From positions 62,001-126,000 of the forward strand of contig NZ_FTMN01000008.1 of NCBI RefSeq assembly GCF_900155945.1: DNA of 64,000 nt, given 5' to 3'. Source of the DNA: Marinobacterium stanieri. GTDB taxonomy: Bacteria; Pseudomonadota; Gammaproteobacteria; Pseudomonadales; Balneatricaceae. A program made the position numbers and the translations under genes. The first letter of the stretch is position 1. Each line of letters starts with the position of its first letter. Under the pieces are notes generated by a model. It had not been told where the DNA came from and made no database searches. It saw only the letters and a list, made by a program, of their open reading frames with translations. Shown piece after piece: positions 7,918 through 47,396 of the stretch.

Positions 7918-8192
7918 TGAGTAGCGAACCTCAAGCACCCAAAATTGAATTCCCCCATCCCGATTACACCCTCAAGATCATCGGTGACAACCATGACGAC
8001 TTCAAAGGTCTGGTTGTTGAGATTGTGCAGATTCATGCACCGGATCTGGATGTCGAGCAGGTGGTGGTACAGGAAAGCGGCAAGGGCAACTATAGCTCAG
8101 TGCGCCTGAGTATCACCGCGACCAGCCATGAACAGCTGGATAATCTGCACCAGGATCTGAAAGCAACGGGTCGTGTGAAAATGGTTCTTTAA
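7917..8192 (+). CDS. ybeD: YbeD family (DUF493) protein
   Basis: A 91-residue small protein of the DUF493 family. It carries [14 protein letters not shown] near the N terminus and the C-terminal RVKMVL. The fold is ACT-like in E. coli YbeD, and the molecular role is unsettled. It is coupled on both sides: the ATG overlaps the dat TAA by one base, and its own TAA overlaps the lipB ATG by one base. A GGAGAGA ribosome site lies in the end of dat. The invariable position before lipB hints at a link with lipoylation, but nothing in the sequence proves it. Confidence 0.92.
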
Positions 8193-18387: not shown

Positions 18388-18403
18388 TGGCACATCCCTT
18401 GCT
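18388..18403 (+). promoter_or_regulatory. Sigma54 promoter of glnA
   Basis: TGGCAC-ATCCC-TTGCT carries the invariant GG (18389-18390) and GC (18401-18402) with correct spacing and matches the -24/-12 consensus almost throughout. Transcription should begin near 18414, leaving a leader of about 70 nt. The remaining upstream stretch (18132-18278) shows no gene. Confidence 0.93.
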
Positions 18404-18485
18404 TTATCAAGCACAAACCGGTTTTCCGGATCCTAATGTAATGATGTTTTGCCAAGGCAAACTGATAACGAGTGGGGATAGCCAA

Positions 18486-19892
18486 ATGTCAGAGAAGACT
18501 CTGAATCTGATCAAAGAAAGCGGCGCAAAGTGGATCGACATGCGCTTTACCGACTTTAAAGGCAAAGAACAGCACGTTACCATCCCGGTAAGCGACATGG
18601 GTGACGAGTTCTTTGAAGACGGCAAGATGTTCGATGGTTCCTCCATCGCTGGCTGGAAAGGTATTGAAGAGTCCGACATGATTCTGCTGCCGGACGACAG
18701 CGCTTCTGTACTGGACCCCTTCGCTGAAGATGCCACCGTTATCGTACGTTGCGACATCATTGAGCCGGCTACTGGCCAGGGTTACGAGCGTGATCCGCGT
18801 TCCGTTGCCAAGCGCGCAGAAGAGTACCTGAAGTCTACTGGTATTGCTGATTCCGCCATGCTCGGCCCGGAGCCGGAATTCTTCGTATTCGACGGTGTTG
18901 AATGGCACGCTGACATCAGCGGTTGCGGTTACAGCATCCAGTCTGAAGAAGCTGCGTGGGCGTCCAACCACAAGATCGAAGGTGGCAACACCGGTCACCG
19001 TCCGCGCGTTAAAGGCGGCTACTTCCCGGTTCCGCCGATCGACTCCCTGCACGACCTGCGTGCCGCCATGTGTGATGCCATGGAAGCCATGGGTCTGACC
19101 ATCGAAGTTCACCACCACGAAGTGGCAACTGCCGGTCAGTGTGAAATCGGTGTGCGCGGTAACACCCTGGTAGACAAGGCTGACGAAGTACAGATCCTGA
19201 AGTACTGCGTACACAACGTTGCTCACGCATACGGCAAGACTGCGACCTTCATGCCGAAGCCGCTGGTTGGCGATAACGGTTCCGGTATGCACGTCCACCT
19301 GTCCATGAGCAAAGATGGCCAGAACATCTTCGCTGGAGACGGCTACGGTGGTCTGAGCGAATACGCGCTGTACTACATCGGCGGTATCGTTAAGCACGCT
19401 AAAGCTCTGAACGCGCTGTGCAACCCGTCTACCAACTCTTACAAGCGTCTGGTACCGGGCTTCGAAGCACCGGTAATGCTGGCTTACTCTGCCCGTAACC
19501 GTTCTGCTTCCCTGCGTATTCCGTACACCACCAGCCCGAAAGCGCGTCGTGTAGAAGCGCGTTTCCCGGACCCGGCAGCTAACCCGTACCTGTGCTTCGC
19601 AGCACTGCTGATGGCTGGTATCGACGGCATCAAGAACAAGATCCACCCGGGCGACCCGGCTGACAAGGATCTGTACGACCTGCCGGCTGAAGAAGCTAAA
19701 GAGATCCCGACTGTTGTCAGCTCTCTGACCGAAGCTCTGGACGCTCTGGAAGAAGACCGTGAGTTCCTGACTCAGGGCGGCGTGTTCACTGACGACATGC
19801 TGGATGCTTACATCGCGCTGAAGCGTGAAGAAGTAGCCAAGGTCAACATGACTACTCACCCGGTCGAATTCGACCTGTACTACTCTGTTTAA
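18486..19892 (+). CDS. glnA: Glutamine synthetase, type I
   Basis: A 468-residue GS-I that makes glutamine from glutamate, ammonia and ATP. It starts [11 protein letters not shown], with DGSSIAGW in the beta-grasp domain, GSGMHVHLS and KPLVGDNG in the catalytic core. The adenylylation site Tyr397 is present in [10 protein letters not shown], so activity should be controlled by GlnE. The ATG at 18486 has a TGGGGA-type ribosome site; an in-frame start at 18399 would overlap the sigma54 promoter and is rejected. It is followed by a terminator and then glnLG. Confidence 0.99.
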
Positions 19893-19910
19893 TCCAGAGT
19901 TGTGAATTGA

Positions 19911-19938
19911 AAAAGGCTTCCCGAGGGAAGCCTTTTTT
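19911..19938 (+). terminator. Rho-independent terminator after glnA
   Basis: AAAAGGCTTCC / GGAAGCCTTTT stem with a CGA-type loop followed by T residues, 19 bp after the glnA stop. It separates glnA from glnLG, though read-through is common in this arrangement. Confidence 0.92.
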
Positions 19939-19989
19939 GTTTCTGCGTTTTGCCCCAACCTGGGGCGTGAGTAACCTTATTTTCTTTTA

Positions 19990-20006
19990 TGCACTATATT
20001 GGTGCA
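19990..20006 (+). promoter_or_regulatory. Perfect NtrC-binding site upstream of glnL
   Basis: TGCACTATATTGGTGCA has both half-sites and is essentially the strong E. coli glnA enhancer sequence. It embeds a possible -10 hexamer, TATATT (19995-20000), so bound NtrC would block a glnL promoter, as at E. coli glnLp. The centre lies 103 bp before the glnL ATG. Confidence 0.88.
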
Positions 20007-20100
20007 TATGGGTTTTGGCTCAGATGGGTCAAGGCCTTAAGCTTCGGTAATCGAGCTCTTGGCAAAGTTGGCGCTTTTCTTGCTTGCACTGCTATGAGGC

Positions 20101-21180
20101 ATGATTGGAATACCTATGGTGAACGCAAACACGCATAAACAGATCCTGGAAAATCTGACCGGCGCCGTTCTGGTGCTGGATGATGAGCTGTGTATCCAGT
20201 ACATGAACCCGGCGGCGGAAATGTTGCTGGAAGCTTCTGTCAGGCGGCTCAAGGATCGTCCCATCGAGGACTGGCTGTCGTCCAGCGAAGAAGAACTGGC
20301 TGTGTTGCGCCAGTCGTTGGCCAGTGGTCACCCGTACAGCAAGCGCGAAGCGCGTCTGGTGACCCAGAGCGGGCGTATTCTGACGGTCGACTACAGCGTT
20401 AACCCGGTACCAGAGGCCGGTATTCTGCTGGAAATCCAGGCGCGTGATCGCCTGATTCGTATCGAGCGCGAAGAAGAGCTGTTGGCACGTCATGCCAGTG
20501 CGCGTGTACTGGTGCGGGGCCTGGCTCATGAGATCAAGAACCCGCTGGGCGGGATCAGGGGGGCGGCGCAGCTGCTGGACAGGGAGCTGGACCGGGATGA
20601 ACTGCACGAATATACCCAGATCATCATCGAAGAAGCAGACCGCCTGCGTCACCTGGTGGACCGCCTGTTGGGGCCGCACAAACTGCCGGTGATCGAGCTG
20701 CTCAATATCCATGCCGTGCTGGAGCACGTTTGCCGGCTGGTCAACGCCGAAACCGATGGCCGCATCGAGATCGTGCGCGATTACGATCCCAGTATTCCCG
20801 AGTTTGAAGGCGCCCGTGACCAGCTGGTCCAGGCGGTGCTCAATATTATCCGCAATGCGATGCAGGCGATGGAAGAGTCCGCGACACCCGAGCCGCGTAT
20901 TACCCTGCGTACCCGGGCATTGCGCCAGGTCACTCTGGGCGCGGAACGCCACCGCCTGGTGTTGGCCCTGGAAATCGTCGATAACGGCCCCGGTATACCG
21001 GAAGAGCTCAGCGATACGCTGTTCTACCCGATGGTCAGCAGTCGTGCTCAGGGGTCGGGGCTGGGGCTCTCCATCGCTCAGTCCATTGTTAATCAACACC
21101 GAGGCCTGATTGAGTTCACCTCGGTGCCGGGCGAGACCCGGTTTAACCTGTTTATACCGTTGGAGTCAGGTCATGACTGA
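20101..21180 (+). CDS. glnL: Nitrogen regulation sensor kinase NtrB (NRII)
   Basis: A 359-residue cytoplasmic histidine kinase/phosphatase that phosphorylates NtrC under nitrogen limitation and is controlled by PII. It has a PAS domain (about residues 10-115), the phospho-acceptor H143 in GLAHEIKNPLGG, the N-box region IIRNAMQA, and G boxes DNGPGIP and GSGLGLSI. It has no membrane span, as expected. The ATG at 20101 has a GAGG ribosome site; an ATG at 20116 is an alternative. It overlaps glnG by 8 bp. Confidence 0.97.
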   Translation: MIGIPMVNANTHKQILENLTGAVLVLDDELCIQYMNPAAEMLLEASVRRLKDRPIEDWLSSSEEELAVLRQSLASGHPYSKREARLVTQSGRILTVDYSVNPVPEAGILLEIQARDRLIRIEREEELLARHASARVLVRGLAHEIKNPLGGIRGAAQLLDRELDRDELHEYTQIIIEEADRLRHLVDRLLGPHKLPVIELLNIHAVLEHVCRLVNAETDGRIEIVRDYDPSIPEFEGARDQLVQAVLNIIRNAMQAMEESATPEPRITLRTRALRQVTLGAERHRLVLALEIVDNGPGIPEELSDTLFYPMVSSRAQGSGLGLSIAQSIVNQHRGLIEFTSVPGETRFNLFIPLESGHD

Positions 21181-22603
21181 AGCTGCTAATGTCTGGATCG
21201 TCGATGACGACCGTTCCATCCGCTGGGTGCTGGATAAAGCACTGACATCGGCCGGATTGAACACCCAGAGTTTCGACCGTGCTGATGGCTTGCTGGATCG
21301 GCTTGACCATGAAGTACCGGATGCTGTTCTTACGGACGTTCGCATGCCAGGGATGGATGGCCTGCAGCTGCTGGACAGGTTGCATGAGGCGCATCCCGAT
21401 CTGCCGATCATTATCATGACGGCACACTCGGACCTGGAAAGTGCCGTTGCCTCTTATCAGGGCGGTGCCTTTGAATACCTGCCCAAGCCCTTTGATGTGG
21501 ATGAAGCGCTGGCACTGGTCAAACGTGCGGTAGAGCATGCGCGTGAGCAGCGTCAGGAGCGTGCCGAGCCTACACCGGAGCGGGCCACTGAGATCATCGG
21601 TGAAGCTCCCGCCATGCAGGAGGTGTTTCGCGCCATAGGCCGTTTGGCACATTCCAACATCACCGTATTGATCAATGGTGAGTCCGGTACCGGTAAGGAG
21701 CTGGTCGCCCACGCCTTGCACCGCCATAGCCCCAGAGCCAAGAATCCGTTTATCCCGCTGAATATGGCGGCGATTCCCAAGGACCTGATTGAATCTGAGC
21801 TCTTTGGTCATGAAAAGGGTGCGTTCACCGGCGCTGCGGCCAGTCGTCGCGGTCGCTTTGAGCAGGCCGATGGCGGCACCCTGTTTCTGGACGAAATCGG
21901 TGATATGCCGGCGGATACCCAGACACGTCTGCTGCGTGTGCTGGCGGATGGCGAGTTTTACCGAGTTGGTGGTCATACACCGGTGCGAGTGGATGTGCGT
22001 ATTATCGCCGCGACTCACCAGAATCTGGAGCAGCTGGTACAGGAAGGCCGTTTCCGTGAGGACCTGTTTCACCGCCTCAACGTGATTCGTATCCACATTC
22101 CTCGCCTGGCCGAGCGTCGTGAGGATATTCCGCGTCTGGCGCGCCACTTCCTGGCCAGCTCGGCCAAGGAGTTGGCGGTGGAGCCCAAGATACTCAAGCC
22201 TGAAACCGCGGCATTCATGTGCGACCTGCCCTGGCAGGGTAACGTACGTCAGCTGGAGAATACCTGTCGCTGGCTGACCGTGATGGCGTCCGGCCGGGAA
22301 GTGTTGGTGTCTGATCTGCCACCTGAGCTGCTGTCTCAGCCTTCGGCGCCGGTCAGCGGCAGCTGGCAGGACAGTCTCAAGGCCTGGGCCGAGCAGCAGA
22401 TCAGCTTTGGTGCCGAAGGGCTGTTGAACGAAGCGGTTCCGGCGTTCGAGCGGGTCATGATCAGCGCTGCCCTTAAAGCGACCCATGGGCGCCGCCGGGA
22501 TGCAGCCCAACTGCTGGGGTGGGGACGCAATACCCTGACCCGTAAGATCAAGGAGCTGCAGATGGATACCGCCACACTCGCGGAAGATGAGGGTGACGAA
22601 TAG
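21173..22603 (+). CDS. glnG: Nitrogen regulation response regulator NtrC (NRI)
   Basis: A 476-residue sigma54 activator. The receiver domain has the acidic pair near residues 11-13 and phospho-acceptor D55 in [11 protein letters not shown]. The AAA+ domain has Walker A GESGTGKE (169-176), the sigma54-contacting GAFTGA loop (216-221) and [11 protein letters not shown]. The C terminus has a Fis-type helix-turn-helix ([20 protein letters not shown]). The ATG at 21173 is inside the end of glnL (8-bp overlap) with a GGAG site. NtrC-type sites occur at glnA, at glnL and at the amino-acid transporter near 42.3 kb. Confidence 0.98.
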
Positions 22604-39916: not shown

Positions 39917-39931
39917 CCGGGTTCAACCCGG
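39917..39931. promoter_or_regulatory. Perfect 7+1+7 palindrome upstream of the MDR gene
   Basis: CCGGGTT-C-AACCCGG, 31-45 bp before the GTG. It may be an operator for an unknown regulator or a small RNA hairpin. The rest of the 206-bp gap 39756-39961 shows nothing clear. Confidence 0.4.
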
Positions 39932-39961: not shown

Positions 39962-41119
39962 GTGACATCAGAAAACCAAACGCCCGCAACCATGGCCGCC
40001 GTTCAATTGGTTGGGCATGGCGGTGTGGATCAATTGCAGTACAGCACTGAGGTGCCTGTGCCTAAACCGGGCCAGGGTGACGTGCTGGTTCAGGTGACTG
40101 CGACTGCCAAGAACAATACCGACCGTAAGGCGCGGGAGGGGCTTTACCCTACCAAGGACAAAGGGGATGTCACCTCCTTCCAGATGGGCGGCGAAGCCAC
40201 GCTGACTTTTCCTCGTATTCAGGGTGCTGACATTGTCGGGCGTGTTGTGGCCGTGGGCGAGGGTGTCAGCGAGTTCCGTATTGGCGAGCGCGGCCTGCTG
40301 GATTTCAATCTCTATCCTGACAACCGACGCGACATCAATCTGACGCCGGACTATTACGGCCACGGCGCCGATGGCGGCTTTGCCGAATATGTGGCCTTGC
40401 CGTCTGATCAGTTTCATCGGGTTGATAACCCAGAGCTGGCCGATGCCGAGCTGGCGTCCATGGGGATGTGTTCCTATCAGACGGCCTACCACATGCTCAC
40501 CGTCGCCGGGGTTGCGGCGGGGGAGCGGGTGCTGGTCAGTGGTGCCAGTGGTGGTGTGGGCACGGCTCTGATTCAATTGTGCCGCATTATCGGCGCCATC
40601 CCCTATGCATTGAGTCAGCAGGACAAGGCCGATGCCTTGCTGGCGCTGGGGGCTGAAGCGGTGCTGGATCGCTCGGATATGAGCCAGTTCACCGAGCAGG
40701 TCAAAGCGGTAACGGGTGGCAAGCCGATTGATGCGGTGATGGATCTGGTGGGCGGTGAGATGACCGATGCCTTCATCGACACCATGATTTTCGATATGAA
40801 ACAGCGCTCCACCTATCCCCGTTTAAGCATCGCCGGGGCCAGTGGCGGTAATCTCTCGGAAATCATGTGGACCCGGGTCTATCTTTATCAGGTGCAGATT
40901 TTTGGCGTGTCCCATGGCACCCGCGAAGAGGCGGAGCAGCTCATTGCCTGGATCCGTGAGGGCGCCTTGAAACCGGTGTTGCACGCGGCCTTTCCCCTGT
41001 CACATCTGCGTGAAGCGGAAGAGTATTTCGTACACCGTGGCAGTAACTATCTGGGCAAGATTGTCATTGTGCCCGATAGCCAGTGGGATACCCATGGCAA
41101 GCCATTTGCCTTGACGTGA
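39962..41119 (+). CDS. MDR-family NAD(P)-dependent oxidoreductase
   Basis: A 385-residue medium-chain dehydrogenase/reductase of the quinone-oxidoreductase type. A GroES-like N-terminal domain precedes a Rossmann domain with SGASGGVGTALIQLC (the glycine motif near residues 193-200). Zn-ligand cysteines of alcohol dehydrogenases are not seen. The GTG at 39962 has an AAGGAG site at 7-bp spacing; the ATG at 39992 matches the usual family N terminus (MAAVQLVGHGG) but has no ribosome site. It is followed at 59 bp by the racemase-like gene, probably one transcript. Confidence 0.82.
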   Translation: MTSENQTPATMAAVQLVGHGGVDQLQYSTEVPVPKPGQGDVLVQVTATAKNNTDRKAREGLYPTKDKGDVTSFQMGGEATLTFPRIQGADIVGRVVAVGEGVSEFRIGERGLLDFNLYPDNRRDINLTPDYYGHGADGGFAEYVALPSDQFHRVDNPELADAELASMGMCSYQTAYHMLTVAGVAAGERVLVSGASGGVGTALIQLCRIIGAIPYALSQQDKADALLALGAEAVLDRSDMSQFTEQVKAVTGGKPIDAVMDLVGGEMTDAFIDTMIFDMKQRSTYPRLSIAGASGGNLSEIMWTRVYLYQVQIFGVSHGTREEAEQLIAWIREGALKPVLHAAFPLSHLREAEEYFVHRGSNYLGKIVIVPDSQWDTHGKPFALT

Positions 41120-41178
41120 TAGGGCTCAGGCCTGTCCACCTCTAGCCTCAGGTGCTGCTTGTGCAGCGGGAGGATGTT

Positions 41179-42225
41179 ATGCAGCACCAGGTAAAACTGG
41201 AACTCATGGATACCCATGCCGGCGGTGATGTCAGCCGCATCGTGACCGGTGGCATCATGCGCTTGCCCGGCACCAGTGTGCGTCAGCAGATGGAGTTCTT
41301 GCGAGATCAGGCTGACGGTTTGCGCCGGCTGTTGCTGGAGGAGCCCTACGGCATTCCAGAAATGTCGGTGGATCTGATCGTCCCCGCCAGCCATCCGGAT
41401 GCCGACTGGGGCTATATCATCATGGAGGTAATGGGGTATCCCATCTACTCGGGCTCCAACACCATCTGTACGGCCACCGCACTGCTGGAAAGCGGTCTGA
41501 TTAAAAAACAGGAAGGCGTACAGACGTTTACCCTGGAGGCGCCGGCCGGGCTGGTGCAGATTGAAGCCCGGATACAGGATGGGGTGGTGGAAGCCATCAC
41601 CTGTGAGGGGCTGCCCAGTTATATCCACACCTACAAGGCCAGTATAGAGGTGCCGGGCATTGGGCCTGTCACCTACAGCATCGCCTATAGCGGTGGTTTC
41701 TACGCGTTGGTGGAGGCGGCCGAGCTTGGTTTTGTGCTGGAGGCTTCCGAAGAGCGTGCACTGGCTGATACTGCCCATGCCATTGTGGAAGCGATTACCG
41801 CCGAGACTGAGTTTGAACACTATGCACTCGGGAATGTTGGGCCCTTGCCCTTTCTTCATTTCATGGGCCCTGTGTTGCAGCTCAGCGATACGACTTACCG
41901 CTCTCGCTCGGCAACCTATGTGCACCCCGGTGTGATCTGTCGCAGCACTACCGGAACCGGTACATCTGCGCGGCTGGCACTGATGCAGTATGAGGGATTG
42001 ATTGAGCCGGGGGATTCCCTTGAAACCGTCTCCTTGCGTGACACCCGCTTTGTTGGCACCTATACCGGCCTTGCCAATAAGCAGGGGCAGGATGTCGTTG
42101 AAAACCGCATCACCGGGCGCAGTTTTGTACTTAATCGCGCAGAGGTGATTGCCAACGAAGATGATGCCATGCTCAGCCCGGAGGTGGTGCAAAGCCTGCG
42201 TGTACTCTCGACACAGCGAACCTGA
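41179..42225 (+). CDS. Proline racemase-superfamily protein with altered catalytic positions
   Basis: A 348-residue member of the proline racemase / hydroxyproline epimerase / 3-hydroxyproline dehydratase superfamily. It starts MQHQVKLELMDTHAGGDVSR, the family N terminus. The first active-site position, Cys in CGHGT of racemases, reads S91 in YSGSNTIC. The second, Cys in DRSPCGTGT, reads T258 in CRSTTGTGTSARL, with Cys254 where Asp is usual. A plain racemase mechanism with two Cys is therefore unlikely; a dehydratase or another activity is possible. The ATG at 41179 has a GGAGG site. It sits between the MDR gene and the ABC transporter. Confidence 0.85.
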   Translation: MQHQVKLELMDTHAGGDVSRIVTGGIMRLPGTSVRQQMEFLRDQADGLRRLLLEEPYGIPEMSVDLIVPASHPDADWGYIIMEVMGYPIYSGSNTICTATALLESGLIKKQEGVQTFTLEAPAGLVQIEARIQDGVVEAITCEGLPSYIHTYKASIEVPGIGPVTYSIAYSGGFYALVEAAELGFVLEASEERALADTAHAIVEAITAETEFEHYALGNVGPLPFLHFMGPVLQLSDTTYRSRSATYVHPGVICRSTTGTGTSARLALMQYEGLIEPGDSLETVSLRDTRFVGTYTGLANKQGQDVVENRITGRSFVLNRAEVIANEDDAMLSPEVVQSLRVLSTQRT

Positions 42226-42279
42226 TACTACCCTGGATGCCTGAGTGCTCTACAAGGCAGCGCGACCGGTACGAAAAGG

Positions 42280-42296
42280 TGCACAATCTCTGTGCA
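42280..42296 (+). promoter_or_regulatory. NtrC-type enhancer site upstream of the amino-acid transporter
   Basis: TGCACA-ATCTC-TGTGCA is a perfect 6+5+6 inverted repeat with the TGCAC-N7-GTGCA core of NtrC sites. Its centre is about 150 bp upstream of the predicted transcription start. A much weaker match lies 31 bp downstream. Confidence 0.7.
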
Positions 42297-42413
42297 CTGC
42301 CTTGAATCGGTGCGCTGCTGCCGGCCCGTGCATTTTACCTTCCTCTCGCGCTTCGCTCGTAAACTGATGTTTTAAAAATACTTTCAATGTTAAGTAAGAA
42401 AACTTCCGATTTT

Positions 42414-42429
42414 TGGCACATTGGTTGCA
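42414..42429 (+). promoter_or_regulatory. Sigma54 promoter of the amino-acid ABC transporter
   Basis: TGGCAC-ATTGG-TTGCA matches the -24/-12 consensus, with invariant GG at 42415-42416 and GC at 42427-42428. Transcription should start near 42440, about 49 nt before the ATG. Confidence 0.93.
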
Positions 42430-42488
42430 AAAGTTATTCGTGTTGAATCTTTTGTTTCAGAAACGTGAAGCCGTTTGAGGATGTTGCC

Positions 42489-43292
42489 ATGAAGAAAATG
42501 TTGAAAGGTTTTAAGCGTAGTTTGGCCGTTGGTGCGGCCGCTGTCGGGATCGTGATGTCAGCCGGGGCTCAGGCCAGCCTCTTGGGTGATATCGAAGATC
42601 GTGGCGTCATTCGTGTTGCCGTGCCGCAGGACTTTCCCCCGTTCGGGTCTGTGGGAACCGATCTGAAACCACGTGGATACGACATCGATATGGCGAATCA
42701 CATTGCCGAAGAGATGGGCGTTAAGCTCGAGCTGATTACCGTGACCAGCGCCAACCGTATTCCCTACCTGCAAACCGGTCGCGCCGACCTGGTGATCTCC
42801 AGCCTGGGCAAGAACGCCGAGCGTGAAAAGGCGATCGACTTCACCGATGCCTACGCGCCTTTCTTCCTGGGTGTATTTGGCACCCCTGATATCGAAGTGG
42901 CTGCACCTGCTGACCTGGAAGGCAAGGTTGTTGGTGTTACCCGTGGTGCCGTCGAAGATATGGAGCTGGAAAAAGTGCTGCCCGAAGGGGCCGAGATGAA
43001 GCGCTTTGAAGATAACAACACCACGCTTTCGGCTTATCTCTCCGGCCAGGTGTCCCTGATTGCGACCGGTAACCTGGTAGCCGCAGAAATTGCAGAACGT
43101 CGCCCGGAACAGGCTCCGGTGACCAAGTTCATGCTGCGTGACTCTCCGTGTTACATCGGCCTGAAAAAAGGTGAAGCCGAACTCCAGGCCCGCGTGAACG
43201 AAATCATCGCTCAGGCACTGGCAAGCGGCAAATTGAACAGCATTTCAGAAACCTGGCTCAAGGCGCCGCTGCCTGCCGGTTTCGGGAGCTAA
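42489..43292 (+). CDS. Amino-acid ABC transporter, periplasmic binding protein (SBP family 3)
   Basis: A 267-residue periplasmic protein. The signal peptide (residues 1-30, ending AQA-S) is followed by a family 3 binding fold: GVIRVAVPQDFPPFGSVG, the YDIDMANHIAEEMG motif, RADLVISSLGKNAEREKAIDF and EDMELEKVLP. The substrate is a polar amino acid or relative; the exact ligand is not readable. The ATG at 42489 has a GAGG site. An in-frame GTG at 42465 is rejected. It is the first gene of a sigma54-controlled operon of four transporter genes. Confidence 0.93.
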   Translation: MKKMLKGFKRSLAVGAAAVGIVMSAGAQASLLGDIEDRGVIRVAVPQDFPPFGSVGTDLKPRGYDIDMANHIAEEMGVKLELITVTSANRIPYLQTGRADLVISSLGKNAEREKAIDFTDAYAPFFLGVFGTPDIEVAAPADLEGKVVGVTRGAVEDMELEKVLPEGAEMKRFEDNNTTLSAYLSGQVSLIATGNLVAAEIAERRPEQAPVTKFMLRDSPCYIGLKKGEAELQARVNEIIAQALASGKLNSISETWLKAPLPAGFGS

Positions 43293-43301
43293 GGCCTGCT
43301 C

Positions 43302-43967
43302 ATGTTGAACTTCAGTGATCTCTTGCCCTATACGGACCTGCTTCTGCAGGGGCTAGGGGTCACCGTTTTGCTGACACTCTATTCCACGCTGGGCGGGGTG
43401 GCCATAGGCACCGCCTGTGCAGCAGGTCGGCACTACGGTGGCAAAAAGACGCGTTGGGTGATCGGCAGTTATGTCGAACTTATCCGCAACACTCCCTTTA
43501 TTGTGCAATTATTTTTCATTTTCTTCGGGCTGCCCGCCATTGGCCTGAAATTAACCGCCTGGGAAGCCGGCTTGCTGGCCATGCTGATTAACCTGGGTGC
43601 ATACAGTACCGAAATTATCCGTGCCGGACTGGCGGCTACGCCAAAAGGGCAGGTCGAAGCAGCACGGGTTTTGGGACTGAGCTCAAGACAGATTTTTTTC
43701 CGGGTAATTTTGAACCCGGCATTTGAAAAGATTTATCCGGCTCTGACCAGCCAGTGCATTATCGTCATGCTGGGGTCGGCCGTGGTATCGCAAATTTCCG
43801 TGATGGATTTGACCTATGCCGCCAACCTGATTCAGTCCCGCAACTTCAGAAGTTTTGAAGCCTATCTGGTCGTGGCCGGCATGTATCTCCTGCTCGCAAT
43901 TCTGATGCGACAGGTATTTGAGTGGGTGGGCCGACGTGTATTTCGCCACCGGAGGACAGCCGCATGA
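43302..43967 (+). CDS. Amino-acid ABC transporter permease 1 (HisMQ family)
   Basis: A 221-residue inner-membrane permease with about five spans. It has the HisM/GlnP signature VELIRNTPFIVQLFFIFFG and the ATPase-coupling EAA loop RAGLAATPKGQVEAARVLGLS. It overlaps the second permease by four bases (ATGA). Confidence 0.94.
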   Translation: MLNFSDLLPYTDLLLQGLGVTVLLTLYSTLGGVAIGTACAAGRHYGGKKTRWVIGSYVELIRNTPFIVQLFFIFFGLPAIGLKLTAWEAGLLAMLINLGAYSTEIIRAGLAATPKGQVEAARVLGLSSRQIFFRVILNPAFEKIYPALTSQCIIVMLGSAVVSQISVMDLTYAANLIQSRNFRSFEAYLVVAGMYLLLAILMRQVFEWVGRRVFRHRRTAA

Positions 43968-44614
43968 TCGATTTTTCAAACTGGGACCTGCTACGCAACC
44001 TGTTACTGGCGACTCGCTGGACCATCGCACTTTCTCTGACGGCCTTTGTCGGTGGCGCCCTGGTTGGCCTGTTGCTGACGGCCATGCGCCTGAGCGGCCG
44101 CTCTGCACTGCAGTATGTGGTGCGCGGCTATGTTGAGCTTTTTCAGGGGACACCGCTGTTGATGCAGCTGTTTCTGGTGTTCTTCGGACTGTCGATGCTG
44201 GGTATCGATATCTCGGCCTGGGCGGCGGCGGCCATTGCTCTGACCTGCTTTACCAGCGCCTTCCTGACGGAGATCTGGCGTGGTTGTATCGACACCCTGC
44301 CCAAGGGGCAGTGGGAAGCCTCACGTTGTCTGGGACTGAGTTTCACACAAACGCTGACGCGGGTGATTTTGCCACAGGCTGTGCGCGTGGCCCTGGCACC
44401 GACCATCGGCTTCTCGGTGCAGGTTGTGAAAGGCACGGCGCTAGCCTCCATTATCGGTTTTGTCGAACTCACCAAGGCCGGCACCATGCTGAATAACGCG
44501 ACGTTTGAGCCCTTTAAAATATTTGCCATGGTAGCGCTGATCTATTTCGCACTCTGTTACCCGCTGTCACTGGCTAGTCAAAAACTGGAGAAGAAATTCA
44601 ATGGCGCTCGTTAA
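43964..44614 (+). CDS. Amino-acid ABC transporter permease 2 (HisMQ family)
   Basis: A 216-residue permease with the same fold: YVELFQGTPLLMQLFLVFFG and the EAA loop RGCIDTLPKGQWEASRCLGL. The start at 43964 has a GGAGG site and overlaps permease 1; an in-frame codon at 43922 is rejected. It overlaps the ATPase gene by 14 bp. The two permeases presumably form a heterodimer. Confidence 0.94.
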   Translation: MIDFSNWDLLRNLLLATRWTIALSLTAFVGGALVGLLLTAMRLSGRSALQYVVRGYVELFQGTPLLMQLFLVFFGLSMLGIDISAWAAAAIALTCFTSAFLTEIWRGCIDTLPKGQWEASRCLGLSFTQTLTRVILPQAVRVALAPTIGFSVQVVKGTALASIIGFVELTKAGTMLNNATFEPFKIFAMVALIYFALCYPLSLASQKLEKKFNGAR

Positions 44615-45329
44615 TATTGATCAGGTCCATAAATATTATGGTGACCTGCATGTACTCAAAGGTGTCGACCTTAAAGTAAAGGCCGGTGAAGTTGTCTCCA
44701 TTATTGGCCGCAGCGGGTCCGGGAAAAGCACGCTGCTGCGTTGCATGAATGGTCTGGAAGAGTATCAACAGGGTGGTATCACCCTGGATGACAAGGAAGT
44801 CTGCAGCGACGAAAAACAGGTCAGACTGCTGTCGCGCAGCGTGGGTATGGTATTTCAGAGCTTCAACCTGTTTCCGCACCTGACAGTGGGTGAAAACATC
44901 ATGCTGGCGCCCAAGCTGGTGTTGGGTGTGGCCGATAAAGAAGCACGCGCGCTGGCGGAGGACAAGCTGGCGAAAGTGGGGCTGGTGGACAAGTTTGACC
45001 AGTATCCCGACCGTCTTTCCGGTGGTCAGCAGCAGCGTGTGGCGATTGCCCGTGCACTGGCCATGTCACCCAAGGTGCTCCTGTGTGACGAGATCACCTC
45101 GGCACTGGATCCGGAACTGGTCGGTGAAGTACTGAAAGTGCTGGAACAGCTGGCGGCGGAAGGCATGACGCTGATCCTCGTCACCCATGAAATGAACTTT
45201 GCCCGCGATGTGGGGGATCGGGTGGTCTTCATGCACCAGGGCACCATCTGGGAAAGTGGGCCTGCACAGGAAGTGTTTGCCAATCCGTCGACCCCTGAGT
45301 TGCAAAGTTTCATCAACGCCGTGCTGTAG
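44601..45329 (+). CDS. Amino-acid ABC transporter ATP-binding protein
   Basis: A 242-residue ATPase of the polar amino-acid transport type (GlnQ/HisP). It has Walker A GRSGSGKST (about residues 34-42), the signature LSGGQQQRVAIARAL, Walker B LLCDEITSALD and the switch His in LVTHEM. It completes the binding protein-permease-permease-ATPase set and is followed 11 bp later by the RpiR-type regulator. Confidence 0.97.
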   Translation: MALVNIDQVHKYYGDLHVLKGVDLKVKAGEVVSIIGRSGSGKSTLLRCMNGLEEYQQGGITLDDKEVCSDEKQVRLLSRSVGMVFQSFNLFPHLTVGENIMLAPKLVLGVADKEARALAEDKLAKVGLVDKFDQYPDRLSGGQQQRVAIARALAMSPKVLLCDEITSALDPELVGEVLKVLEQLAAEGMTLILVTHEMNFARDVGDRVVFMHQGTIWESGPAQEVFANPSTPELQSFINAVL

Positions 45330-45340
45330 GGAGAGGGGCT

Positions 45341-46177
45341 GTGCGTCAGATTACCGAAACGATCCGGCAAAATTATGACCAGCTCTCGCCCAGTGAGCGG
45401 CGAGTGGCCGGTTTCATCATTGATCATCTGGATGATCTGGCAACCTATAACTCGGTTGAATTGAGTCGCCAGTGTAATACGTCGAAAGCGACAATCAGTC
45501 GGCTGTTTCGTCGTCTGGGGTACGACAGCTTCAAGCAGGCCCGAGAAGAGCTGCGTCGACTGCGGCAGTCGGGCGTGCCCTTGCCCGGTTCCATGCAAGC
45601 CGGTGTCAGTCTGGTGGATCGCCATTTCGCCAGTGAGCAGCAAAACCTGCAGCGTCTGGCTGCATTGGCACAGTCCAGCCAACTCAGTGATATCACCGAG
45701 CAGCTGGCCGAAGCCAAAAATGTTGCCGTGATCGGTTTTCGCAACAGTTACCCGATTGCCTTGCACCTGCGTCAGCAGCTGCAGCAGGTGCGTGCATCCG
45801 TGAGGCTTTTGCCTCAGCCGGGGCAGACGCTGGGCGAAGAGCTGGTCGAACTGACGCCCGATGACCTGGTGATACTGGTGGCGTTTCACCGCCGCCCATC
45901 CGGTTTCCGAACCCTTTTGAACACCTTGCAACAGCAGCAGATACCGACCGTTCTGCTATGTGAAAGCAATAGTGGCTTGATGGCGGGTGGAAAAGGCATG
46001 GTGCTGGAACTGCCGCTGGATACCGTATCCGCATTTGACAGCTATGCCCTGCCCATGAGCCTGGCCAGCCTGCTCAGTAACCTGCTGTTGCACCATCAGC
46101 TGGAGCAGGGCCGATCAAGAATTGAGCAGATTAACGAACTCTATGATCTGACCGGGGAGTTGGACATCAGTTATTGA
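45341..46177 (+). CDS. RpiR-family transcriptional regulator
   Basis: A 278-residue regulator with an N-terminal RpiR helix-turn-helix (about 1-75; SRQCNTSKATISRLFRRLGY) and a SIS domain (about 115-250) that normally binds a phosphosugar or related effector. The start is a GTG with a GGAGAGG site. It is 11 bp from the transporter ATPase gene, so it is probably in the same transcript and may regulate the unit in response to the transported compound or a catabolite. Confidence 0.9.
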   Translation: MRQITETIRQNYDQLSPSERRVAGFIIDHLDDLATYNSVELSRQCNTSKATISRLFRRLGYDSFKQAREELRRLRQSGVPLPGSMQAGVSLVDRHFASEQQNLQRLAALAQSSQLSDITEQLAEAKNVAVIGFRNSYPIALHLRQQLQQVRASVRLLPQPGQTLGEELVELTPDDLVILVAFHRRPSGFRTLLNTLQQQQIPTVLLCESNSGLMAGGKGMVLELPLDTVSAFDSYALPMSLASLLSNLLLHHQLEQGRSRIEQINELYDLTGELDISY

Positions 46178-46238
46178 CTGCCCGAGCCGAAGCCCCATCC
46201 GACGAGCGGGGCCTTGGCGGGCTCAGTGGTTTTTTGGA

Positions 46239-47396
46239 TCAAGCCGGCAGTTCATTGAGAAGGGCGCGGCGCATCCGATCGACGGCCTGCTCCAGCAGGG
46301 CTCTTGGGCATCCGAAATTGAGGCGCATGAAGCGATCATCGCCAAAGTCACGCCCCGGTGACATGCCCACGCCGGCTTTTTCAAAGAAGTGCGGCGGGTT
46401 TTCCAGGCAGGCAGCGGATACATCGATCCAGGCCAAGTAGGTGGCCTCAATCGGGTCCAGCCTCAGGCCGGGCAGGGCGTTAATGGCTTCTACCAGATAG
46501 TCGCGGTTGCCGCGCAGGTAATCGAGCTGAGCCCGGTTCCACTCATCTCCATCCCGATAGGCCGCCAGCGCGGCGGTAAAACCAAGCAGGTTCACATCCG
46601 GCACTATGCCCTTGCGTACGCGCTGGAAGCGTTGGCGCAGTTCCGGGTTTTGAATCACCGCAAAGGAGCAGCCCAGGCCGGCAATGTTGTAGGTTTTGCT
46701 CGGCGCCATCAGGGTAATGGTGCGGGCAGCGATCTCATCCCCCAGCGAAGCAATGGGAGTGTGCGTCAGGCCTTCTTCCAGAATCAGGTCGCAATGGATC
46801 TCATCGGAGCAGATGACCAGATCATGGCGAATGATGATCTCGGCCAGAGCTTCCAGCTCTTCGCAGCGATACAGGGTGCCGCCCGGGTTGTGCGGGTTGC
46901 AGAACAGCATCAGCTGCGTTTCCGGGGTGATCGCAGCTTCCAGTGCCTCCAGATCGATCAGCGTGCGGCCATCCTCGTTGCGCTTCAGTGGCACCTTGAT
47001 CAGGCTGCGGTCCGACAGCCGCGGCGCTGACATGAACGGCGGATATACCGGAGAGGGGCTGATCACGGCCGAACCACTCTCGCCAGTGGCGCGACAGGCC
47101 AGATTCAGGCCACACACCAGGCCCGGCAGCCAGACCAGATCGTTGGCTTCAATCTGCCAGCCATACAGCACCTGCATGCGTTCAATGACCAGCCGGTTCA
47201 GTTCCGACGGGGTGTTGGTGTAGCCGAACACGCCATGGTCGATGCGCTGGTGCAGAGCATCGATCACCGGCTGAGGCGCCATGAAGTCGGTATCGGCGAC
47301 CCACATCGGCAGAATCTCGCTGTCGGCGTACTTCTCCCATTTCTGGCTGGAGGTGGCGCGGCGGTCGATCTGTGCATCAAAGCGGGTCGCATTCAT
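46239..47396 (-). CDS. patB: MalY/PatB-type aminotransferase (C-S lyase-like)
   Basis: A 385-residue fold-type I PLP enzyme. It has the MalY/PatB signatures PMWVADTDF, VFGYTNTP and NPHNPGGTLY, and the PLP Lys K234 in APSKTYNIAGLG. Family members cleave cystathionine or other S-conjugates, or transaminate. The ATG at 47396 has an AAGGAG site; the open frame continues further upstream but without family similarity. It converges on the RpiR gene and diverges from leuA. Whether it belongs to the transporter unit is not certain. Confidence 0.88.
   Translation of the reverse strand: MNATRFDAQIDRRATSSQKWEKYADSEILPMWVADTDFMAPQPVIDALHQRIDHGVFGYTNTPSELNRLVIERMQVLYGWQIEANDLVWLPGLVCGLNLACRATGESGSAVISPSPVYPPFMSAPRLSDRSLIKVPLKRNEDGRTLIDLEALEAAITPETQLMLFCNPHNPGGTLYRCEELEALAEIIIRHDLVICSDEIHCDLILEEGLTHTPIASLGDEIAARTITLMAPSKTYNIAGLGCSFAVIQNPELRQRFQRVRKGIVPDVNLLGFTAALAAYRDGDEWNRAQLDYLRGNRDYLVEAINALPGLRLDPIEATYLAWIDVSAACLENPPHFFEKAGVGMSPGRDFGDDRFMRLNFGCPRALLEQAVDRMRRALLNELPA

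Follow-up and report, generated by a model that had tools for sequence, protein, structure and literature searches.

How is the 5-hydroxyl of hydroxyectoine removed? So far this step has only been proposed, for EutABC. In the sections of PMC5924519 that treat it, EutA would invert, EutB dehydrate to 2-methyl-1,6-dihydropyrimidine-4-carboxylate and EutC reduce, and it is stressed that these steps were not biochemically evaluated. Extracts of PMC13188858 have EutD/DoeA opening hydroxyectoine and propose that EutABC act on the opened products; the same extracts record eutA as absent among Halomonadaceae, and eutBC as absent from Vreelandella and a third of the Halomonas species. Deletion of doeA in Halomonas salifodinae did not fully stop ectoine/hydroxyectoine loss, and other pathways were inferred (PMC11142988, in excerpt). 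Here we analyse a pair of adjacent genes from a 64,000-nucleotide stretch of Marinobacterium stanieri DNA (contig NZ_FTMN01000008.1, positions 62,001 to 126,000; hereafter the window), encoding a reductase of the medium-chain dehydrogenase/reductase (MDR) superfamily and a proline-racemase-superfamily protein (PRS). Very probably the pair belongs to ectoine metabolism. That the two proteins together strip the hydroxyl from hydroxyectoine to yield ectoine is the exact reaction we propose, and we give it a probability of about 0.6.

The second point of reference is trans-3-hydroxy-L-proline dehydratase (t3HypD). As excerpts of PMC4113996 describe it, the cluster-3 enzyme carries Ser90 and Thr256. 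Asp232 and His90 of a Cys88/Cys236 relative coordinate the prolyl nitrogen, and the His90 position is occupied by Ser in Ser-type enzymes.

A linked reductase and racemase-superfamily gene pair

The MDR gene (COG0604-like; PF08240/PF00107) lies at 39962..41119 on the plus strand, with a GTG start at 39962 and the ribosome-binding site aaggag. PRS (PF05544, 271 bits) is encoded at 41179..42225 on the same strand, with an ATG at 41179 and the ribosome-binding site gggagga. Its open reading frame (ORF) opens at 41152, and residues are numbered along this 357-aa ORF. Throughout, start codons were picked by eye and families were taken from Pfam/NCBIfam profiles.

To survey the pair we started from 34 loci encoding PRS relatives in genomes of the order; of these loci, 26 hold close orthologues (51–79% identity). 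Together with 80 named loci and one Tsukamurella plasmid, these 26 make up 107 loci. The named loci are the best 80 of 359 relatives found with the peptide patterns YIIME[VA]M and TYVHPGVI; by title they belong to Halomonas and relatives, Marinobacter, Marinobacterium, Marinospirillum and Salinisphaera. Some genomes are represented twice in both the 107 loci and the 107 aligned subfamily rows; L033 and L067, for example, both come from M. alkalitolerans. Of 147 loci, ten yielded no PRS match reaching 250 aa: the broken L052 and nine stretches of plasmid that lack PRS. An MDR gene stands directly upstream of PRS on the same strand in 105 of the 107 loci, the median distance between the two matches being 9 bp. 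The exceptions are L068, which is cut by a contig end, and L057, which has no MDR and is also the only one of the 26 close orthologous loci to lack an MDR gene beside PRS. At L057:9283-10365 (genome G026) a clade-B PRS thus stands without an MDR neighbour, the sole exception among the 107 not due to a contig end.

No third gene family accompanies the pair consistently: the next most frequent neighbour occurs in 28 of the 80 named loci. None of 105 regions upstream of MDR contains a sigma54-like site. A shared operator upstream of MDR was considered and set aside, the enriched 8-mers being judged to reflect relatedness. Between epmA and the window's MDR gene, at 39917-39931, lies a perfect 7-bp inverted repeat, ccgggtt-c-aacccgg, which was not found in the other 109 upstream-of-MDR regions checked.

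In a phylum-wide sample 51 of 393 genomes match PRS, and the six intact subfamily matches (554–628 bits) all fall within the order; the next best intact match, outside the subfamily, scores 275.5 bits. Elsewhere the subfamily was found in Salinisphaera (L073, L074, L123) and in Tsukamurella. The Tsukamurella tyrosinosolvens plasmid carries an MDR–PRS pair at L178:12028-14146, 45 and 49% identical to the window's and with a short gene overlap, presumably acquired by transfer. Two PRS copies have internal stop codons, L052:8963-9942 (G079) and G339:C2:693256-694272; G079 otherwise has ectoine genes, and G339 has no doeA match.

The active site sets the subfamily apart. The third best of 17 PDB matches to PRS is 4k7g, deposited as a 3-hydroxyproline dehydratase. 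The window's PRS has a Ser100-Gly-Ser-Asn motif, Cys263 and Thr267; the coordinating Asp, four residues before the second catalytic position, corresponds to its column 263. Ser100, Ser102, Asn103, Cys263 and Thr267 are invariant in 107 of 107 aligned subfamily rows. The 31 other PRS rows all have Asp at position 263, and either Thr (25) or Cys (6) at position 267. His236, Tyr256 and His258 are likewise invariant in the subfamily and occur in none of the 31 other rows; for Tyr256 and His258 this invariance arises partly by construction, as they lie inside a search pattern, whereas Ser100, Cys263 and Thr267 lie outside both patterns. With an invariant Ser/Thr dyad and Asp exchanged for Cys263, the dehydratase dyad is kept and the amine site is changed. 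The protein scores far below the t3HypD models (NF047722, 247 of 550 bits; NF045511, 140 of 540). Assignment as proline racemase or 4-hydroxyproline 2-epimerase was rejected, because Thr267 takes the place of the second catalytic Cys. From these residues we propose that PRS is a cyclic beta-hydroxy-amino-acid dehydratase.

Could it simply be an ordinary t3HypD, with MDR serving as a non-orthologous delta1-pyrroline-2-carboxylate reductase on a route from trans-3-hydroxy-L-proline to L-proline? The dyad and the SGSN motif are indeed those of 4k7g and of cluster-3 t3HypD (PMC4113996, in excerpt). However, it is the Asp expected to hold the prolyl nitrogen that has become Cys throughout the subfamily, and the partner reductases described in the same excerpts are OCD or MLD2, not MDR. 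Nor does this route give any reason for the presence of ectC in every PRS-positive genome of the order or for the ectoine-operon members of the MDR clade, both presented below. We regard it as unlikely.

Ties to ectoine genes and a proposed reaction

If the pair acts on hydroxyectoine, its distribution should follow the ectoine genes. We counted these in 293 genomes from the order, of which 26 hold PRS (the broken G079 copy included), 148 ectC, 54 ectD and 20 doeA; the cut-offs were E <1e-75 for ectD and E <1e-150 for doeA, which left out weaker matches in 7 of 61 and 5 of 25 genomes, respectively. ectC is present in 26/26 PRS-positive and 122/267 PRS-negative genomes. Among ectC-positive genomes, ectD occurs in 20/26 with PRS vs 34/122 without (p 6e-6), doeA in 12/26 vs 6/122 (p 7e-7), and either of the two in 24/26 vs 36/122 (p 2e-9). 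Permutation within families leaves p values of 0.004 for ectD, 0.001 for doeA and 0.0001 for either. The window's own genome has ectC and ectD, and no doeA match at E 1e-60. In six genomes (G066, G079, G108, G161, G203, G208) there are two genes for ectD-type hydroxylases that score above the family cut-off.

In four of 106 loci, all of one genus (L040, L054, L056, L058), the pair follows homologues of TeaA and TeaC, and both PRS clades (73% and 51–53% identical to the window's) occur in this position. The L040 binding protein matches 3gyy (E 1e-174) and 2vpn (E 1e-170), which we take to be TeaA; the other three loci reach 78–88% identity to the L040 query.

MDR relatives provide a second line of evidence. 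The best PDB match of the window's MDR is 4j6f (E 4e-89), which aligns without visible difference over 345 residues to a Sinorhizobium meliloti pSymB protein. Its gene immediately follows ssd and a gene for an aminotransferase, opposite ehuBCD-eutABC-doeAB; the genes of this unannotated record were placed by Paracoccus yeei queries. A Phyllobacterium relative is placed in the same way in an ectoine cluster. P. yeei itself has an annotated ehuABCD-eutA-eutB-cyclodeaminase-doeA-doeB-ssd-aminotransferase run that ends in the gene for a 66% identical MDR, and in R. etli asnC, ssd, the aminotransferase gene and MDR stand together with no annotated eut or ehu gene within 14 kb. The window's MDR does not lie inside an ectoine gene cluster, as the P. 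yeei, S. meliloti and Phyllobacterium relatives do, but it falls in the clade of ectoine-operon MDRs. A tree of 32 MDRs joins P. yeei to the window's clade as its sister (100/100), with the three rhizobial MDRs on a separate branch (100/99). Four distant MDRs, three of them paired with enolase-superfamily genes, split from the PRS-partnered and ectoine-operon MDRs and Nitratireductor; the tree is midpoint-rooted, with several inner forks open and long branches flagged. According to partial text of PMC5320631, which cites earlier work, the genes induced by ectoine in S. meliloti include one for a COG604 oxidoreductase, and such an oxidoreductase belongs to the EutR regulon of several Rhizobiales. 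Judging from the gene's place, this oxidoreductase is probably the 4j6f protein.

How might the pair work? In the reaction we favour, Ser100 of PRS would abstract the alpha-proton of (4S,5S)-5-hydroxyectoine and expel the neighbouring hydroxyl as water, as in trans-3-hydroxyproline dehydratase, to leave 2-methyl-dihydropyrimidine-4-carboxylate. MDR, acting as an NAD(P)H ene/imine reductase, would then reduce the dehydrated product to ectoine, the net effect being a reversal of EctD. trans-3-Hydroxy-L-proline has the (2S,3S) configuration and hydroxyectoine the (4S,5S) configuration. By our own working the Cahn-Ingold-Prelog ranking is the same at both centres, so that alpha-hydrogen, carboxylate and hydroxyl are arranged alike in the two rings, and a syn elimination of the t3HypD type would therefore need no inversion. 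In species with doeA, ectoine from the pair would feed DoeA; in species with ectC and ectD and no doeA match, such as this one, hydroxyectoine would be returned to ectoine. The pair would also be a candidate for the doeA-independent loss in H. salifodinae, as regards hydroxyectoine only. Whether a cofactor-independent PRS dehydratase and an MDR dehydroectoine reductase amount to a hitherto unassigned pathway of halophilic Gammaproteobacteria, forming a reversible cycle with EctD where DoeA is lacking, we consider evenly balanced. A sequence-only reading of the interval 39962-47396 had already suggested dehydration and reduction, coupled to import by the adjacent transporter. For the MDR–PRS pair, with a cyclic hydroxy-amino acid as substrate, this chemistry is retained; a part for the transporter in the route is not supported.

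Alternatively, the pair might act on acyclic intermediates, 3-hydroxy-N-acetyl-diaminobutyrate or hydroxy-diaminobutyrate, after ring opening by DoeA. This would place it where EutABC is proposed to act (PMC13188858, in extract), and it accords with the presence of doeA in 56/58 PRS-positive genomes of family f37, which we take as Halomonadaceae (126 genomes: PRS 58, eutB 78, doeA 108); the two without doeA come from one genus. Yet 14 of the 26 PRS-positive genomes of the order, this one included, have no doeA match, and the characterised PRS enzymes act on five-membered imino acids, as far as the excerpts of PMC4113996 go. We think it improbable.

Does the pair then replace EutBC? In the order we examined eutB at E <1e-110 in 34 chosen genomes (26 with PRS, and 8 with doeA and no PRS): it occurs in 2/12 genomes with doeA and PRS vs 6/8 with doeA alone, and only the match in G128 passes the curated cut-off. 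In f37, where no eutB match passes the curated 413 bits, eutB was counted at E <=1e-95, five matches reaching only 324–330 bits. There eutB and PRS are negatively associated (odds ratio 0.35, p 0.03, ancestry uncorrected), and doeA accompanies eutB in 78/78 genomes.

Several observations weigh against a role in hydroxyectoine turnover. Among the 108 doeA-positive f37 genomes, 35 have both eutB and PRS, 21 PRS only, 43 eutB only and 9 neither; given such frequent coexistence the pair is not a plain EutBC substitute, and replacement is at best partial. Two PRS-positive genomes of the order, G235 and G292, lack both ectD and doeA, and in 102 of 106 loci no close ectoine gene is found near the pair. 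Ectoine genes mark halophiles in general, so that the co-occurrence partly reflects habitat and ancestry. Ten stretches with MDR relatives were inspected: three lie in eut/doe clusters and the R. etli one beside asnC-ssd-aminotransferase only, and the rest comprise one PRS pair (Tsukamurella), three with enolase-superfamily partners and two with neither (Nitratireductor, Aureibacter). The Nitratireductor MDR, without an ectoine cluster, falls in the same clade of the tree. Outside Halomonas, an MDR as close as that of P. yeei turned up in one plasmid species. The P. yeei MDR has annotated eut genes as neighbours, and its 21-kb stretch contains no PRS; its role there therefore cannot be just that of a PRS partner.

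Might the pair instead serve another halophile solute or stress compound that merely accompanies ectoine synthesis? The shared habitat would explain the co-occurrence, and a distant MDR, 37% identical to the window's, adjoins N-methylproline demethylase and betaine transport genes. However, the link to ectD and doeA persists within ectC-positive genomes and within families, and related MDRs lie inside ectoine operons, which makes this explanation highly improbable in our view. The distant MDRs precede mandelate racemase/enolase-superfamily genes (L183:8977-11192, L184:8989-11191, L185:8974-11159), and it is the P. pantotrophus locus of this kind that also holds the demethylase and betaine genes. 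Enzymes of different kinds that abstract an alpha-proton may thus share MDR as their reductase.

The adjoining transporter block

The sequence-only reading had described the interval as one nitrogen-controlled unit of uptake and catabolism. Its gene calls were accurate. Seven same-strand ORFs run from MDR to an RpiR-type gene ending at 46177, with a PatB-type gene converging on them, and families are as named. After the pair follow, all on the plus strand, a polar amino-acid type solute-binding protein (SBP; 42489..43292; PF00497, SBP_bac_3), two ABC permeases (43302..43967 and 43964..44614, both PF00528; the start of the second is inferred, its ORF opening at 43922), an ABC ATPase (44601..45329; PF00005) and an RpiR-family regulator (45341..46177; PF01418+PF01380). 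The convergent gene, 46239..47396 on the minus strand, encodes a PatB/MalY-type C-S lyase (TIGR04350, 441 bits vs a cut-off of 340). A tRNA search found none. That reading had also called the transporter sigma54-driven, and an exact consensus match for a -24/-12 promoter, TGGCACATTGGTTGCA, does lie at 42414..42429 on the plus strand, beginning 75 bp before the SBP start. Its exclusion of the standard hydroxyproline route holds as well: among the nine proteins scanned there is no D-amino-acid-oxidase-type oxidase, dihydrodipicolinate-synthase-type deaminase or semialdehyde dehydrogenase.

The unit itself did not survive. The earlier reading had proposed a neighbourhood comparison, lack of joint conservation in relatives to count against it. 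Run here, the comparison found the genes for MDR, PRS, transporter, RpiR and PatB not conserved together in the 26 other orthologous loci (12–19 kb each). None of these has a homologue of the window's SBP or RpiR, and ABC homologues are limited to scattered ATPase or permease matches of 26–41%. In the same-genus genome G001 the order is epmB-efp-epmA-MDR-PRS-patB-leuA, which is the window's order minus the ABC and RpiR genes. PatB was rejected as a pathway member, since it adjoins leuA in G001 too, where the locus has no ABC genes.

Where, then, does the block belong? Among 13 other genomes of the genus and family, a close SBP occurs in G162 alone (80%; another match there reaches 33%). In its locus L192 the five block genes are 73–90% identical to the window's (permeases 90 and 89%, ATPase 88%, RpiR 73%) and precede genes for allantoicase, ureidoglycolate lyase and the allantoinase PuuE; an exact sigma54 site at 8080 begins 76 bp before the orthologous SBP ORF. 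In Klebsiella a homologous block adjoins hpxU and oxalurate genes (hpxX, an AtzE-family amidohydrolase gene, hpxZ), behind which comes an aminotransferase gene annotated as being of the alanine-glyoxylate type. The SBP relatives on two rhizobial plasmids stand next to a GntR gene, and the stretches inspected show no purine gene; in the window, too, no purine-ring degradation gene adjoins the block. Assignment of the transporter as Ehu was rejected, the curated NCBIfam cut-offs being missed (EhuA 278/345.4, EhuB 42.6/190.9, EhuC 140/197 bits). Judged by the surroundings of its relatives, the block most likely imports a product of purine breakdown under nitrogen control, the ligand being what we infer. 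At no more than one mismatch the window holds 6 sigma54 matches vs 3.9 expected, which is not significant alone (a count of 6 is attained in 17 of 100 shuffles). The window has one further exact match, at 18388, where a glutamine-synthetase-like ORF (by eye) starts. This ORF is followed, within 18388-22603, by histidine-kinase-like and sigma54-type response-regulator-like ORFs, ntrBC-like by eye.

The interval is thus made up of two independent modules, the MDR–PRS pair and the ABC–RpiR block, which stand side by side only in this lineage, by insertion or differential loss. A single operon importing and degrading a D- or imino acid draws on contiguity, shared strand and the sigma54 site before the transporter. 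But the missing SBP and RpiR homologues, even in the same-genus locus, the sigma54 site confined to the ABC block, with none before MDR in 105 loci, and the allantoin genes behind the closest block found leave it barely credible. As this case shows, genes in an unbroken run on one strand can belong to two unrelated modules.

Significance and comparison with described systems

Should the proposed reaction hold, the pair would be a two-enzyme alternative for removing the 5-hydroxyl, present in 58/126 f37 genomes and in halophiles without doeA, and the question is reduced to a single assay. It would give a function to a PRS subfamily and to an ectoine-cluster oxidoreductase of solved structure (4j6f). 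A reversible cycle would let cells retune their ectoine/hydroxyectoine mix with neither made nor burned, and in industrial hydroxyectoine production the pair would drain product. Our library searches found no paper linking a proline racemase to hydroxyectoine or Halomonas, and among the papers listed no title or abstract opening names such a pair.

The comparison with known systems runs as follows. Klebsiella HpxU is the closest named relative of the window's RpiR (48%), and SBP (62.5%), permeases (64–68%) and ATPase (71%) match the hpx block as well, but in Klebsiella the gene order differs, with hpxU first. Of the ectoine importers TeaABC and EhuABCD, TeaA and TeaC homologues adjoin the pair in the four loci named above, whereas the window's own transporter misses the Ehu cut-offs. 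The S. meliloti 4j6f protein shares the MDR clade (about 45% identical to the window's) but its gene accompanies ssd and the aminotransferase gene, and the 29-kb stretch lacks PRS. With 4k7g and t3HypD, PRS shares fold family, Ser/Thr dyad, SGSN motif and the expected syn-dehydration chemistry; it differs in the Cys that replaces the amine-site Asp in all aligned rows, and in having MDR as partner where t3HypD has OCD or MLD2. Like the EutABC proposal, the reaction suggested here would convert hydroxyectoine to ectoine by dehydration and then reduction. EutA, however, is described as a racemase and EutB as threonine-dehydratase-like (PMC5924519, in part), and EutC as cyclodeaminase-like (PMC3187862, in part), while PRS needs no pyridoxal phosphate (PLP). 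The EutABC proposal includes a prior inversion; PRS would require none, provided that hydroxyectoine is (4S,5S). EutB, as a PLP enzyme, would need a free amino group, and the ring has none; PRS would not need one. The pair may act on the intact ring and EutBC after its opening.

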